Origin: Diacronema lutheri
Lineage: Eukaryota > Haptophyta > Pavlovophyceae > Pavlovales > Pavlovaceae
Reading direction: 5' to 3'
NCBI GenBank assembly: GCA_019448385.1
Contig: JAGTXO010000009.1
Span: forward strand, 372,001-436,000
Length of the DNA stretch: 64,000 nucleotides
The notes below the pieces were generated by a model. The model saw nothing but the letters and a program-made list of their open reading frames with translations, was not told where the DNA came from and searched no databases. Made by a program: the position numbers and the translations under genes. Positions 29,297-34,608 of this stretch are shown in pieces. Position 1 is the first letter of the stretch, and every line of letters begins with the position of its first letter.

Positions 29297-29418
29297 CTAA
29301 ATAGGGCGCGGTCCGGGCTGGTCCGCGTCTTTACTCGGTGGCCTGGCTGTCGACCGACGAGAGCTTGGGCGAGTTCGGCGGCACGTTGGCTCACTCGGGC
29401 TCGGTGCGCGGCTCTGCC

Positions 29419-29451
<33 letters not shown>

Positions 29452-30300
29452 CTTCGGACTCGCTGCCCGGCTCTGCCTGTGCGGGCGCGGTGCACTTGGA
29501 CTCGATGCCTGGCTCTACCTTCGTGGGCGCGGTCGCGGGCACGGGCGCGCCCTCGACCCCGTCGCGGTTGAAGACATCGATCTCGACGCACACGCCGTGG
29601 TCCTTGTAGTCGGTGGCCTCGCTGTCGTTCGCGAAACCTCGGGCAAACCCGCAACGAGCGACGATACCTCGGCGTGGAGCCAGCAGATCTCATGCTGCAC
29701 CGCGTGATCAGGTTCTTGAGCGCTCCGTTGAAAGAGTCAATTCTCTCGGAGGCCCTCGCTGCACCACACCAGATAGCCATCGAGCTTGTAGGCGTGCACG
29801 TGCGCCCGTGCGGGGTCCTTGGAGAGCGCATCGGCGCGCGCGCACATGCCGTCGCATGATCTGGCCGGTGTCATGCTGTGCTTCCAAGGCCTGGTGCTCG
29901 GCGTTGAGCGTGTCGTGATCCACGCGAACGAGCTGCAACCAGCTGCCGTAGCCGCGCGACGCCGCCGTCGCCGACGATGCGCTGAAGCACGTGGCCCATG
30001 AGGTGCGCGCGGCACGTGCCGAGCGCGACATTCTTGCGCAGCAGCGTGATGATCCGGGCGCCGCGCACGAGCCGGCCCGCGCACTTGAGCGCGTAGACCC
30101 GGCCTGCGGCCGCACATGCACGTGCCAACGACCAAGTCGGCGGGCCCGCCGTCAAGCCAAAAGTTGGCCTCGGCCGCATCGCGGCGGTGGGCGATGCGCC
30201 GCAGGATGCGCACGCGGTAGTGCCGGGCGACGGGCAGGTCGTCGCCACAACGTGCTCAACGACCGCGCGCACACATCGCTGCCGAACGCCGGGCAGTGCT
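29297..30300 (-). pseudogene. Frame-broken coding relic, unknown family
   Basis: On the minus strand, short stretches of ordinary protein-like sequence follow one another but in changing frames: ANFWLDGGPADLVVGTCMC, then VYALKCAGRLVRGARIITLL, then LVRVDHDTLNAEHQALEAQH, then HAYKLDGYLVWCSEGLREN, then QHEICWLHAEVSSLV, then KDHGVCVEIDVFNRDGVEG. At least four frame changes and one in-frame stop separate them, and no GT/AG pairs tidy all of them. I read this as one decayed gene. The family is not recognised. Its position beside the Fanzor relic suggests, without proof, that both belong to one dead mobile element. Confidence 0.45.
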
Positions 30301-30347
30301 CGCCCGGCGACGAGCTGCAGCGCCCAGACGACGAGCTCGAGGGCTAA

Positions 30348-32541
30348 CCCAAGGGCGAGGACGACGTGCGCAACCTGATCCGCCAGATCGAGCTGCCGCC
30401 CGACCAGAAGCGCCGCCATCCGCTCGGCGAGGCCAACGCGGCGCAGCGGGCGCGCAACCGGCGGCACATTGACCGGCTGTCGCAGGGCGACGCGCCGACG
30501 ACGCGCTCGCACCTTTCGCTCGACGGCTGCGTCGCGACCGAGGCGGAGCAGATCTTCACCGCGTACAAGGTGCACCCGCGCCGTGTCGCGTACAAGCTGC
30601 TGCGCGCGCTGCTGCGCGCGGCGGTCGACGCGGACGAGGCCGCCAAACCGCGCGGCACGCGCACGTCGAATGAGCAGCGCGACGCGGACGTCGCGACGCT
30701 GCTCAAGCTGCTGTGGTCCGGCGACACGGCCGGCGCGGCGCCGCGGCTGCCGCCCGCGCTCGCGCACCACGCCGACTGGCTCGTGCTCCCATGCGACTAC
30801 AGCACGGATGACCCCAAGGTCAGGCGCACGACCAACTACTTCCTGACGGTGGCCGCGTCGTCCGCGCGGCGCGCGCGCGTGCCGCGGCGCGCCCCGCTCG
30901 CGCGTGCTCCGCGGCGCGGCGCCGCGGCCAGGCATGGACGGGCGCGCACCGTGCGGACGACGTGCCGCGCGCGCGCGCAGCAGGGCCACGGCGCGCGGAG
31001 CGCCCGACGACGCTGATGGCGTGCTCTCCGACCCCCCCCCCCCCCCCCCCCCCCCCCACACCCCCCCCCCCCCCCCCCCCCCCTCCTTCCCTTGCGTGCG
31101 CCGCGCAGCCGGATAAGGCGGCGATGGGCGCGTCGCTTCTCGCGCGCCTCGGCATGCTCTACACGCACGTCACCGGAGAGCCGCCGCCGTACGCGCTCTG
31201 CCCCCGGCGCGGGAGCATGCAGCAGCGCTTTGTCAACCTGTCCGCGTCAGACCTGTACCTCCTGCTCGACGAGGACGACACGGCCTTCGTCCGCGAGTGG
31301 GTGTGCAAGCTGCAGACGGCCGACAGCGTGCCGCACAACGACCCGCGCACCTCGATCAGCGACCCGCGCGTCAGGAATTTGATCTTCGGCCACTTCATCA
31401 ACCTCGACGAGCGGGCAATGCGGTGGTCAGGCGAGGAGCTGCCCAGCAGCGACGTGACGGCGGAGGAGCGGCGCACGTATGTCGGCACCGCCGTCCCACC
31501 CGCGATCGCGTCCGCCGGACCGCAGCCGGCGGTGGACCTGCGCCACGACGGCAACACCTGGCAGGTGGTCGTGCCGGTGTTCAAACCGCCGCCGCCCGGC
31601 GGCAGCACCCCGGCTCCGACGGCTTCGTGACGTACGCGCCGAACGGCCGCGGGCTCGAGCCCACCTCGGTTCGCCTCACGCAGCGCGAGCGCGCCGCGCG
31701 CGCGGGGCACGCGCGCGAGCGCAGCAAGCTCGAGGGCGCGCGGCAACGGCCGCTCGTCGAGCCGGGCGCGCGCGCCGGCCCGTCGGGGCCGGGCGGCGCG
31801 CGGCCGCGCGCGCCGCGTGCTCCGCCGACGGCGGCCGCGCTCGAGGCGGAGCTCGGCGCGGCGCACGGCGGGCGCACCGCGCTTGGCGCGAACGACCAGG
31901 TCGCCTACGCGCGCGGGCACGAGTGCGACGGGCTACGCTGCCCGTGCACGGCGCGCGCGCGCGGCTGCGCGCGCGCAAGCGGCGCGGCGGCGCGAACCGG
32001 CGCGAGTGCGCGCGCGCGGCGGCGCGGATCGTGCGCGTGCACGCGACCGACGGAGGGCTGCGGCCAGACCAGCTGCTCGTGCCTTTCGGCGATTGGCTCC
32101 ACCGGTCGCGCGGCGGCGGCTGCGTGCGCGGCAAGCCGCCGGCGCTCGGCGTCGGCGTGCTCTGCGCGCTGCGCCGGCGCGGCGTCGCGGCGACGCTCGT
32201 GCCCGAGCCGCTCAGCTCCAAGTGCTGTTCGGAGCTGCGCGAGGTGCGGGGCGCGCCCGCTGCGAGCGCGGCGCTGGCCGCCGACGCCGGCGCAGGCGCT
32301 CCCGCCGACGACGGCGCGCCGACGACGGCGGACGAGGCGGCCGGGCAGCCGCGGCCGCTGCGGCGATGCGGAGGCACGCTGCATACGTACGCGCGCAGCT
32401 CGCCGAGCGGCCGCGGCGCGTGGCGGGCGACGCGGTGCGACGCGTGCGGCATCATCTACCACCGCGACTGGACGGCGGCGCGCTGCATCTACCACAACGA
32501 CCACCTGGCCCACATTCATTTGCAGGCAACCTTCGCTGTGA
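30348..32541 (+). pseudogene. Fanzor (eukaryotic TnpB-like) remnant
   Basis: The C-terminal frame (32040-32541) reads GDWLHRSRGGGCVRGKPPAL, then VPEPLSSKCC, RRCGGT, RCDACG and HRDWTAARCI: the GDW segment, alternative Glu plus TSK-type motif, zinc ribbon and RuvC-III of Fanzor/TnpB nucleases. Upstream in another frame, HPGSDGFVTYAPNGR followed by RLTQRERAARAG matches RuvC-I and the segment after it, but the catalytic Asp of DPG is His. Still further upstream, PPYALCPRRGSMQQRFVNLS fits the conserved pre-RuvC region. The 5' part opens after a TAA at 30345 with no ATG. Two frame switches (near 31580-31605 and 31925-31980) may be frameshifts or small introns. One intron with two C runs (31032-31083) ends at CAG near 31110. 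Family: RNA-guided DNA nucleases carried by transposons. Confidence 0.6.
31032..31083 (+). repeat. Twin C runs in intron of Fanzor remnant
   Basis: 26 C, then ACA, then 23 C, immediately upstream of a CTCCTTCCC stretch and a CAG acceptor. A polypyrimidine tract made of C. Confidence 0.9.
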
Positions 32542-32561
32542 CTGTCAGTGACCCGACAGTC
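32540..32561 (+). repeat. Short perfect hairpin 3' of the Fanzor remnant
   Basis: GACTGTC, 8-nt loop, GACAGTC. A 7-bp perfect stem just beyond the last conserved Fanzor residues and 38 bp before the next gene's ATG. It could be an element end, part of a promoter, or chance. Confidence 0.4.
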
Positions 32562-32598
32562 GGACAACGTCTACGACTTGGCTCCGCGACTGACGCCC

Positions 32599-34608
32599 AT
32601 GCCGGCGGACGTGCCGTCTGCGGTGCCCGTCCTCGCGGACGGCGCGGCGGGCGCGCTCGTGCTCGTCGTCGGCGCGGCGCTTGTAGTGTCGCGCCGTCGC
32701 GCGGGCCAGCCCGCGGCGGGTGACGTGCTCGCGGCCGCGTCGGAGGAGGAGACCACGCCGCTCGTCGGCGGTGCGTGCGCGCGCGCCGAGCGTGGCGGCG
32801 CGCGCGCGCGCGCGCCGCTGCTGCTGCTTCTCGTGGGCGGGCTGGCGCTGCTTGCCGGGCTCGGCGTGCGGCGGCGACTGTTCAAGCCTTCCGTCCGCCC
32901 GCCCGCGCCCTCCGCCCTCGAGCCGTCCGCGCGCTGCATGACGTCGGACGACGCGCTGCTGCGCGGCGCGTACGACGTGCCTGGCGTCGGTGACCTCGGC
33001 CTGCCGCCGCCAGGCACGGCCATGTGGGCGGTGCGCACGCGATCCGCGAGCGCGCAGCGGCTCTTTGACCAGGGTGTCCTCCTCCTCATGGGCTTCAACC
33101 ATCCCGAGGCCATACGCAATCTCGAGGCTGCGACGCGCGCTGACGGCGATTGCGGCATGTGCTGGTGGGCGCTCGCGTACGCGCACGGCCCGCACGTCAA
33201 CATGGCGCTCGACGCGGCGCACTCGGCGGCGGCGCGCCGCGCGCTCGAGCGCGCGCTCGCGCTCGCTGACCGGCTGCCTGCGCGCGAGGCCGCGTACGTG
33301 CGCGCGCTCGAGCCGAGGTACGCGCTCGACGAGGCGGAGTTTGGGCGCATGGCGCAGCGCGGGCGCGACGCCGCGTTCTCGCGCACGATGGCGGCGCTGC
33401 ACGCGGCGGAGCCGGAGGACGCGCACGCGGCGGCGCTGTACGCCGAGTCGGTGATGGACCTCTTCCCGTGGGACTACTACGAGGCGCGCGCGACGCAGGG
33501 CTTCCGCCCGCCAAGCGCGATGTTGCGCGCCGAGTGCGCGGCCGCGAAGAAGGCGCTCGAGCGCGCGCTGGCCGTGGCGCCGCACCACCCGCTCGCGCTG
33601 CATTTGCTCGTGCACCTGACCGAGCCGAGCGCCGACCCGGCCGCCGGCGAGCTCGCCGCCACGCGCCTGCTCTACGGCGCCGCCGGCCGCGCGAACGCGC
33701 ACCTGGTGCACATGGCAGGCCATACCATGCTCCTCATTGGCCGCTACGCGGACGCAATCGATGCGAATGCGCGCGCGATTGCGGTGGACGAGGCGTACGC
33801 GGCGCGCTGTTTGCAGCCCTACCTCCCGGGGCACCAAATCGCGCAGCTGCAGGCCGCAGCCATGCTCTCCGCGCGCGCCGCGCTCGCGCTCGAGCGCGCG
33901 GCGCCGGCGGCCACCGTCGACGCGCCGTCGCAGGCGGCGCACTTGCAGTCGCTCTTCGCGACGGCGCGCCCGCTCGTGCGCGCGCGGTTCGGGCAGTGGG
34001 ACGCCGTGCTCGGCGCGGACGCGCGCGAGGACGCGCCGCACGCCGCGTCGATCGCCTCGCGCCCGTTCACCGCGGCCGTGTGGAGCTATGCGCGCACGCT
34101 CGCGCTCGCGCACAGCGCGCGGCGCGACGACGCGGCTGTCGAGGCGGCGCGGCTCGCTGCGCACGTTGCGGCCGTGCCGGCGCGCACGGCGATGTCGGGT
34201 CACGTCTTCGACGGCTGCCACCACCAGCTGGGCACCCTCATGCTCCTCACTGTCCGCGCCGCGCTCGCGCTACCGGCCGACCCGGCCGCCGCGCTCGCGA
34301 GGATGCGCGAGGCGTCGGCAATCCAGGACGCGTTGCCGTACATGGAGCCCGAGCACTGGTACACGCAAGTGCGGCTGTGCGAGGGCGCGCTGCACTTGCG
34401 CGCGGGCGACGCGCGCGCCGCGCTGCGCGCGTTCGACGAGGACTTGCGCCAGCGCAACGAATCGGCCTGGGCGCTGCTCGGCCGGCGCGACGCGCTGCGC
34501 GCGTTGGGCGATGCGCGCGCGGCGGACGCGGACGTCGCGCTGGCGCGCGGCATGCGCGATGCGGACGTGCAGCTGCGCGGGCCGTGCTGTGAGCTCGGCC
34601 TCTGCTGA
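32599..34608 (+). CDS. Membrane-anchored TPR protein
   Basis: A 669-aa single-exon protein from the ATG at 32599. Two hydrophobic segments near the N-terminus (AAGALVLVVGAALVVS, and LLLLLVGGLALLAG near residue 80) suggest a membrane anchor. Next comes a region resembling bacterial-type TPR proteins: QRLFDQGVLLLMGFNHPEAI followed by ADGDCGMCWWALAYAHGP, then MAGHTMLLIGRYADAIDANA. Such repeats form helical binding surfaces. No catalytic motif is seen and the partner is unknown. The frame is open a little upstream to 32548 but without ATG. The Fanzor remnant's reading frame runs into this gene in another phase. Confidence 0.85.
   Translation: MPADVPSAVPVLADGAAGALVLVVGAALVVSRRRAGQPAAGDVLAAASEEETTPLVGGACARAERGGARARAPLLLLLVGGLALLAGLGVRRRLFKPSVRPPAPSALEPSARCMTSDDALLRGAYDVPGVGDLGLPPPGTAMWAVRTRSASAQRLFDQGVLLLMGFNHPEAIRNLEAATRADGDCGMCWWALAYAHGPHVNMALDAAHSAAARRALERALALADRLPAREAAYVRALEPRYALDEAEFGRMAQRGRDAAFSRTMAALHAAEPEDAHAAALYAESVMDLFPWDYYEARATQGFRPPSAMLRAECAAAKKALERALAVAPHHPLALHLLVHLTEPSADPAAGELAATRLLYGAAGRANAHLVHMAGHTMLLIGRYADAIDANARAIAVDEAYAARCLQPYLPGHQIAQLQAAAMLSARAALALERAAPAATVDAPSQAAHLQSLFATARPLVRARFGQWDAVLGADAREDAPHAASIASRPFTAAVWSYARTLALAHSARRDDAAVEAARLAAHVAAVPARTAMSGHVFDGCHHQLGTLMLLTVRAALALPADPAAALARMREASAIQDALPYMEPEHWYTQVRLCEGALHLRAGDARAALRAFDEDLRQRNESAWALLGRRDALRALGDARAADADVALARGMRDADVQLRGPCCELGLC

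Follow-up and report, generated by a model that had tools for sequence, protein, structure and literature searches.

What is the Fanzor-like stretch in a chromosome of the marine haptophyte alga Diacronema lutheri (Pavlovophyceae), and what kind of element does it belong to? The window analysed here is a stretch of 64,000 nucleotides (GenBank assembly GCA_019448385.1, contig JAGTXO010000009.1, here C36; C36:372001-436000) in an assembly of 43.49 Mb and 103 contigs. A preliminary description, made from the sequence alone, had read positions 30348-32541 as an inactive relic of a Fanzor, a eukaryotic RNA-guided nuclease of the TnpB type, in an algal chromosome; that location holds. Fanzors described so far are stand-alone or transposon-borne nucleases whose role is unclear, according to the portions of the literature accessible to us, to which all papers cited below by PMC number are likewise limited. 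We consider it highly probable that the window contains what is left, inactive and internally deleted, of a giant Fanzor-carrying element, whose relatives bear a Pif1 helicase and a giant gene ending in Fanzor and would act by the mechanism proposed below. Beyond what the preliminary description had in view, the carrier is a giant element, present in well over 100 copies, in which Fanzor ends a giant open frame.

Extent and damage of the window relic

The motifs on which the preliminary description relied are present. GDW, PEPLSSKCC, CDACG and HRDWTAARCI follow one another in the claimed order in a single plus-strand frame (31458-32723), and HPGSDGFVTY and RLTQRER lie in a different frame (31117-32541). 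They exceed chance, as 20 of 20 paralogues match the same DNA. A genome search with the C-terminal frame of the window, in which 99 of 368 candidates were scored, revealed at least 25 close places besides the window (74-85% identity) together with more remote ones, so that the locus is not a lone copy. Twenty of the 25 close places were taken as loci L024-L043, each 9.0-9.5 kb long except L025 (6 kb). Eighteen of them match the window across 30247-32495, L026 matches from 30704, and L025, at a contig start, from 31097. Identity over the aligned bases ranges from 85.8% (L026) to 97.5%, the nearest copies being L031, L030, L027 and L029 (97.2-97.5%).

The relic extends over window positions 29327-32495 and comprises about 0.9 kb of the 5' part of an element and a partial Fanzor gene. 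Position 30348, previously given as the start, is merely the base after a stop codon; the matches to the paralogues set in at 30247, and 29327-30246 belongs to the same element family as a separate, second piece. At the other side, homology stops at 32495 and not at 32541. The matching segment of L050 (845-1758) comes from a 31.6-kb element on contig C4, in which it is about 0.6-1.5 kb from the 5' end. The features of the relic are as follows.

29327..30246, plus strand: 5' part of the element (blastn, 93% identity over 922 bp to L050 845-1758, contig C4)
30246..30247, no strand: internal deletion junction, at which the 5' part abuts the Fanzor part and the middle of the element is gone
30247..30848, plus strand: end of giant exon 1, the Fanzor N-terminal lobe, NVLNDRAHTSLPNAGQ... 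through NYFLT (18 of 20 paralogues match from 30247, in segments 86-94% identical)
30345..30347, plus strand: TAA stop in the exon-1 frame (Tyr at the same place in paralogue L038)
30849..31108, plus strand: remnant of a phase-0 intron, GT...AG, with a poly-C tract (GT in 19 of 19 copies with a locatable exon end, AG in 20 of 20)
31109..31606, plus strand: first part of exon 2, the Fanzor region preceding RuvC-I (paralogue alignment)
31606..31607, no strand: 109-bp deletion that takes out the RuvC-I Asp codon, with 'HPG' at its junction (paralogue alignment)
31607..32495, plus strand: RuvC and zinc-ribbon part of exon 2 (96.5-97.8% identity to the 20 paralogues)
32085..32096, plus strand: FGDW motif at the Fanzor GDW/GNW position (sequence alignment)
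32202..32228, plus strand: PEPLSSKCC, with the alternative RuvC-II Glu six residues ahead of the zinc-ribbon Cys (feature as defined in PMC10711439)
32367..32369, plus strand: second zinc-ribbon Cys, in RCGG (sequence alignment)
32436..32450, plus strand: CDACG, the third and fourth zinc-ribbon Cys (sequence alignment)
32460..32486, plus strand: HRDWTAARC, with the RuvC-III Asp; homology stops 9 bp further on, about 0.9 kb before the 3' end of the element

Compared with its six nearest copies, the window copy has lost the 109 bp and, after 31922, a further 4 bp, and it differs by indels in the intron remnant, among them a 65-bp gap placed after 30844. The catalytic Asp of RuvC-I (DPG) is absent. 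It had been described as replaced by His; instead, its codon was lost with the 109 bp that the paralogues have between 31606 and 31607, and the deletion junction happens to give CAC, which is read as 'HPG'. The switches of reading frame noted earlier are due to the 109-bp deletion, the 4-bp deletion and the phase-0 intron at 30849-31108. Since a 5' piece is joined directly to the Fanzor part, the relic is an internally deleted element, and both of its ends have also been cut off. With the TAA stop, the two deletions and the lost ends, the copy is inactive, as had been supposed, and the element mechanism proposed below is beyond its reach.

Identity of the nuclease core

Taken alone, the window copy falls under the Pfam cut-off: when the region and the adjoining one were translated in six frames and compared with profiles, one Fanzor-type match emerged, to PF07282 (E=0.016; 15.8 bits, where the cut-off is 26.3). 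The corresponding scores are 17.7 bits for exon 2 of the close paralogues (family A), 27.4 for exon 2 of a second family (family B, copy L044), which exceeds the cut-off, and 39.9 (E=4.7e-10) for a canonical Fanzor of the same genome (family C, L002). The Fanzor reading of the relic nevertheless holds through a chain of paralogues that leads to this canonical Fanzor and is significant at each link, from the window to family A (E=4e-80; 91% identity over 206 residues), from A to B (E=2e-35) and from B to C (E=2e-8). The Fanzor N-terminal lobes of families A and B can also be aligned (E=1e-14).

Both RuvC aspartates (RuvC-I and RuvC-III), four Cys and the alternative Glu typical of Fanzors are retained in the relatives, and the D, E, D, Cys and GxW positions are invariant across the three sequences compared (A, B and C). 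At RuvC-I, family A has DPG, the canonical L002 has FDPG and the family-B copy read has DPN. The alternative Glu six residues ahead of the zinc finger, a feature that marks Fanzors (PMC10711439), is found in PEPLSSKCC (window and A), PEPYTSMHC (B) and DESYTSQDC (C). In 19 of the 20 family-A loci, DPG shares one open frame with GDW, SSKCC, CDACG and RDWTAA, the exception being L024 with DPG in another frame; copies with an intact RuvC-I motif, which the preliminary description had suggested looking for, are thus present in the genome.

A different zinc-ribbon or RuvC protein that merely resembles Fanzor is a highly improbable explanation. It could draw on the low profile scores of the window and family A, on the DPN of family B and on the zinc ribbon of A and B, in which four Cys and the RD are retained and the first CxxC knuckle is opened. 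These points are set against the significant links to a Fanzor of the same genome, the invariant catalytic and structural positions, and the score of family B above the Pfam cut-off. In addition, the GNW and EHYTSQEC of Guillardia theta Fanzor1 line up in a PDB profile match, although the PDB profile matches are weak (Cas12f1, E=0.022; G. theta Fanzor1, E=0.033; OrfB zinc-ribbon protein 7wju, E=0.036). With NF040570 (guided_TnpB), the canonical Fanzor of this genome gave E=1.5e-5 and family B 0.085. Single-sequence PDB searches with the family-A and family-B exons found no Fanzor, and the same search with the canonical Fanzor reached the Spizellomyces Fanzor at E=0.51 only; in NCBIfam and PHROGs, family-A exon 2 had no match at the thresholds used. 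By analogy, the element-borne Fanzor would be guided by RNA.

The canonical Fanzor constitutes a second family in its own right, represented by L002:1-1758 (C1:153201-156428) with FDPGKNKHF, VGDWS, DESYTSQDCSKC and FDRDFNAARNIY. Twelve more places score equal to L002 (43.9 bits).

The predicted giant gene and the family-B chromodomain

Upstream of the Fanzor core, family A was read in a single copy on C36 (L045, L048). In this copy the Fanzor N-terminal lobe ends an open frame of 2645 codons, which is followed by a 322-bp phase-0 GT...AG intron and an exon of 801 codons that terminates near the 3' end of the element. From the sequence, the Fanzor core is predicted to be the end of a giant gene that would be translated as one protein. 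The giant frame has also been read by eye as an Ulp1-like protease and a PD-(D/E)XK nuclease; no Pfam match was obtained even to E 10, and these readings are a lead only.

A search with the N-terminal part of the giant frame gave at least 105 places (105 scored of 204 candidates), and for 61 of these the 40 kb downstream include a listed zinc ribbon (150 ribbons scored). In 58 of these 61 the distance is about 18.1-18.2 kb, after correction of the minus-strand rows by 900 bp, and in the remaining three it is greater; an apparent division of the distance into two size classes was a strand-coordinate artefact of about 900 bp. The first 18 rows of this search (85-100% identity, the query copy included) were taken as family A, and in nine of them the frame is 2645 codons long or longer.

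Family B was read over the last 4.5 kb of one copy (L044). Its exon-1 part contains a chromodomain (PF00385, E=8.9e-13, 48.4 bits, above the cut-off) in the frame of the Fanzor lobe; three family-A frame pieces that were scanned held no match to PF00385. A chromodomain search of the genome (150 scored of 260 candidates) showed that 90 of the 150 scored matches are followed, at a distance of 2447-2476 bp, by a listed zinc ribbon. When the four best-scoring matches are set aside as unlike the rest, 102 of the other 146 are contained in open frames that reach 4000 codons or more, and seven in frames that reach 5000 or more. Single frames of 5746 codons (on C48) and 6136 codons (on C11) contain both the start of the giant gene and the chromodomain. 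In 74 of 87 family-B rows the start of the giant frame lies within a frame of just 1345-1346 codons, and the giant frame is thus broken in most family-B copies.

Copies with this short first frame often have the chromodomain downstream in a frame of about 4500 codons. The short first frame may reflect a fixed mutation, a programmed frameshift or a homopolymer assembly error. At C69:981566-982417, a frame of 1421 codons contains two chromodomain matches that score above the element type.

The alternative to a giant fusion is a Fanzor gene of its own that starts within the long frame; the fusion would then be an apparent one, produced by the scarcity of stop codons in a genome of 73% GC, and the carrier would be an ordinary large multi-gene Helitron. 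We regard this as unlikely, albeit with real points in its favour. Stop codons are rare at such a GC content, antisense frames are also long (1106 codons), methionines occur shortly upstream of the Fanzor lobe, and the broken first frame of most family-B rows fits separate genes. On the other hand, open runs in 300 base shuffles reached 806 codons at most, as compared with the 2645 observed. The sense-frame order of codon-position GC (GC3>GC1>GC2) is unbroken across exon 1 of the copy read, where all 26 windows have GC3 as the highest and GC2 as the lowest value; in exon 2 the same pattern is seen in six of nine windows, and the intron and the Gly-rich tail do not show it. Indels among family-A copies tend to multiples of three in the exon-1 part within the loci (12 of 19, p=0.012) and in the Gly-rich tail (61 of 75), as against 11 of 45 in the intron (the other 34 are not multiples of three) and none of three in the exon-2 core. 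The frames of 4000 codons or more around most chromodomain matches, and the two frames that join the start of the giant gene to the chromodomain, also argue for the fusion, although such frame counts are not independent because the copies are near-identical.

Substitutions among family-A copies give a dN/dS-like ratio of about 1.0, with the three codon positions about equally changed, which suggests that the recent copies drift without visible constraint. Substitutions present in at least three copies lean towards non-synonymous changes (82 of 99, p=0.014; 55 of 66, p=0.053); the mutation model is crude, and positive selection is not claimed.

The carrier element

The Fanzor relatives sit at the 3' end of elements that are mostly 21-31 kb long and have discrete ends. 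Among the 20 family-A loci, L040 has lost its 3' end, and 18 of the 19 others stop at the same TATAC, beyond which the flanks are unlike one another; L026 differs. At the 5' side, eight of nine ends read TATATA[G/C]GGCGCGG, preceded by flanks that differ between copies or by the start of a contig, and the ninth reads CTATAGAGGGCGCGG (CTATAG). Exact tags were counted at 164 places for a 5' 27-mer and at 194 (family B) and 25 (family A) places for the 3' tags, the backwards controls giving none. On contigs C1-C46, a partner among the listed 3' tags was identified for 54 of 84 listed 5' ends, and the other 30 remained unpaired. The paired elements range from 12.7 to 37.8 kb (mean 28.0 kb), with recurring lengths of 21.4-21.6 kb (11 elements), 26-27 kb (8), 29.1-29.4 kb (7) and 30.9-31.1 kb (19). 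By a rough estimate (mean of 28.0 kb x 164), the elements may make up about 10.5% of the assembly.

At C1:1, C12:1, C8:187116-187138 and C32:47, the start or end of a contig coincides, to a few bases, with an element end. The repeats were therefore probably the cause of breaks in the assembly, and there may be more copies than were counted. A sub-telomeric location is not supported: contigs start at element ends, and L044, the one such end read at length, showed no telomere repeat.

A Pif1 helicase is encoded near the 5' end of the element (PF05970, E=3.7e-13; PF21530, E=5.6e-14), and all 150 scored Pif1_2B candidates (of 160) are above the cut-off. The giant gene lies downstream on the same strand, with Pif1 about 6.4 kb upstream of the giant frame in the four copies compared (C1, C4, C9 and C36). 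The upstream 3.6 kb of an A copy and a B copy (L045/L047) are 96.7% identical, so that the two families share the 5' part and differ in the giant gene. The start of the giant protein is just about 81-83% identical between A and B, as compared with 96.7% for the upstream 3.6 kb, a difference for which mosaic origin and fast evolution are both possible. Between Pif1 and the giant gene there is an ORF resembling a ubiquitin protease (L048:1-783, minus strand); its UCH match (E=0.064) is under the cut-off and the identification was rejected.

Hairpins are found near both ends of the element, and in family A the arms are shared (ACGACCC/GGGTCGT); no long terminal inverted repeats were seen at the element ends. 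In RNA folding, the 5' end and the family-A 3' end each did better than shuffled sequences (z -2.1), and the family-B 3' end did not (z -0.2). A guide RNA is not claimed from folding.

That these are canonical Helitrons or Helitron2 elements that captured a Fanzor, as in Chlamydomonas, is a serious possibility to which we give slightly less than an even chance. It fits the Pif1 helicase inside the element and the hairpins near both ends with shared family-A arms and no long terminal inverted repeats, since Helitron2 ends consist of two hairpins with short asymmetric inverted repeats (PMC3627910). Against it, the ends read TATATA... and ...TATAC, as opposed to the TC...CTRR of Helitron1 (PMC3627910), and the Rep domain was not found at the elements: Helitron_like_N (PF14214) had one match in the genome, on C63, outside the elements read, whose 5' third was covered except for about 3 kb. 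A divergent Rep is possible within those 3 kb. A search with PF20209 found no match, and its control matched nowhere. In view of the single PF14214 match and of none in the elements read, we describe the element as Helitron-like and not as a proven Helitron. The sole PF14214 match of the genome (L049, C63:35738-36019) is apart from the elements studied.

An endogenous fragment of a giant virus, in place of a transposon, has very little to commend it as a source. Viruses of algae, including those of haptophytes, do carry Fanzors (PMC3627910). The discrete ends, the more than 160 copies and the recurring lengths speak against such a fragment, and no relative turned up in two pattern-based scans of viral contigs, which used the canonical Fanzor and part of the giant frame, respectively.

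Proposed mechanism and significance

In the mechanism that we propose for the Fanzor-carrying element, the Pif1 helicase and a further nicking or recombining activity would start at the hairpin ends of the element and copy it into TATA-rich sites; replicative spread is suggested by the presence of a helicase in the element. The Fanzor module would take up RNA of the element 3' end and its flank as a guide. The guided Fanzor would then cut the matching empty site next to a TATA motif, and repair would copy the element back. This outline follows TnpB and Fanzor biology, in which the guide is RNA from the 3' end with its flank and cutting occurs beside a motif at the 5' junction (PMC10432273). 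In family B, the chromodomain suggests binding to marked chromatin and may keep the complex there.

The wider claim is one that we hold with even weight for and against. It would describe giant elements of about 31 kb with a helicase and no recognised transposase; their RNA-guided nuclease would be the C-terminal module of one chromodomain protein of about 5,000-6,000 residues, guided cutting would be coupled to chromatin reading, and the elements would occupy about one-tenth of a haptophyte genome. The near-identical copies with an in-frame chromatin-reading domain offer a natural test system for whether Fanzor aids the persistence of a transposon and for where in chromatin a Fanzor acts.

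In the D. lutheri genome paper, the annotated repeats are mainly LTR and LINE, and the string 'transpos' is absent from its main text (PMC8379373). An element class that may account for about 10% of the assembly thus goes unnamed in that text. The main text of PMC10711439 and PMC10432273 names neither Diacronema nor haptophytes, and the part seen of a review touching on Fanzor and haptophytes gave no haptophyte Fanzor. Fanzors of two haptophyte viruses, those of Emiliania huxleyi and Phaeocystis globosa, are already listed (PMC3627910), which bears on the earlier suggestion that a copy here would extend the host range. No Fanzor with a fused chromodomain was found in the accessible literature on that combination, and nothing was found under giant Helitron. 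Overall, such elements were not found in the literature on Fanzor, Helitron, haptophytes and D. lutheri, although earlier reports may exist.

Comparison with known systems

Among known systems, the Fanzor1 elements CRe-1, CRe-2 and CRe-3 of Chlamydomonas reinhardtii, which are non-autonomous Helitron2 (PMC3627910), are alike in having an intron-bearing Fanzor and hairpins at both element ends. The D. lutheri elements differ from them in their size (mostly 21-31 kb), the internal Pif1, the TATA-type ends, the lack of a detected Rep, the family-B chromodomain and a Fanzor core that closes a giant frame. Spu-1 of Spizellomyces punctatus, with its nuclease SpuFz1 (PMC10432273; PMC3627910), similarly has a Fanzor core in a multi-copy element, but it is about 2.1 kb long, has terminal inverted repeats and encodes a single 633-aa protein. 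The adjacent motif of SpuFz1 is CATA, to which the TATA at the edge of the D. lutheri elements is close; TATA would be the candidate adjacent motif here. Guillardia theta Fanzor1 (PDB 9cer) is alike in the aligned GNW and EHYTSQEC, with the weak profile match given above, and no inverted repeats are reported at its locus (PMC10432273). Finally, TnpB of the IS200/IS605 type is alike in its zinc-ribbon and RuvC-III positions, and the D. lutheri Fanzor is set apart from it by the alternative position of the Glu, a eukaryotic carrier and a predicted giant host protein.
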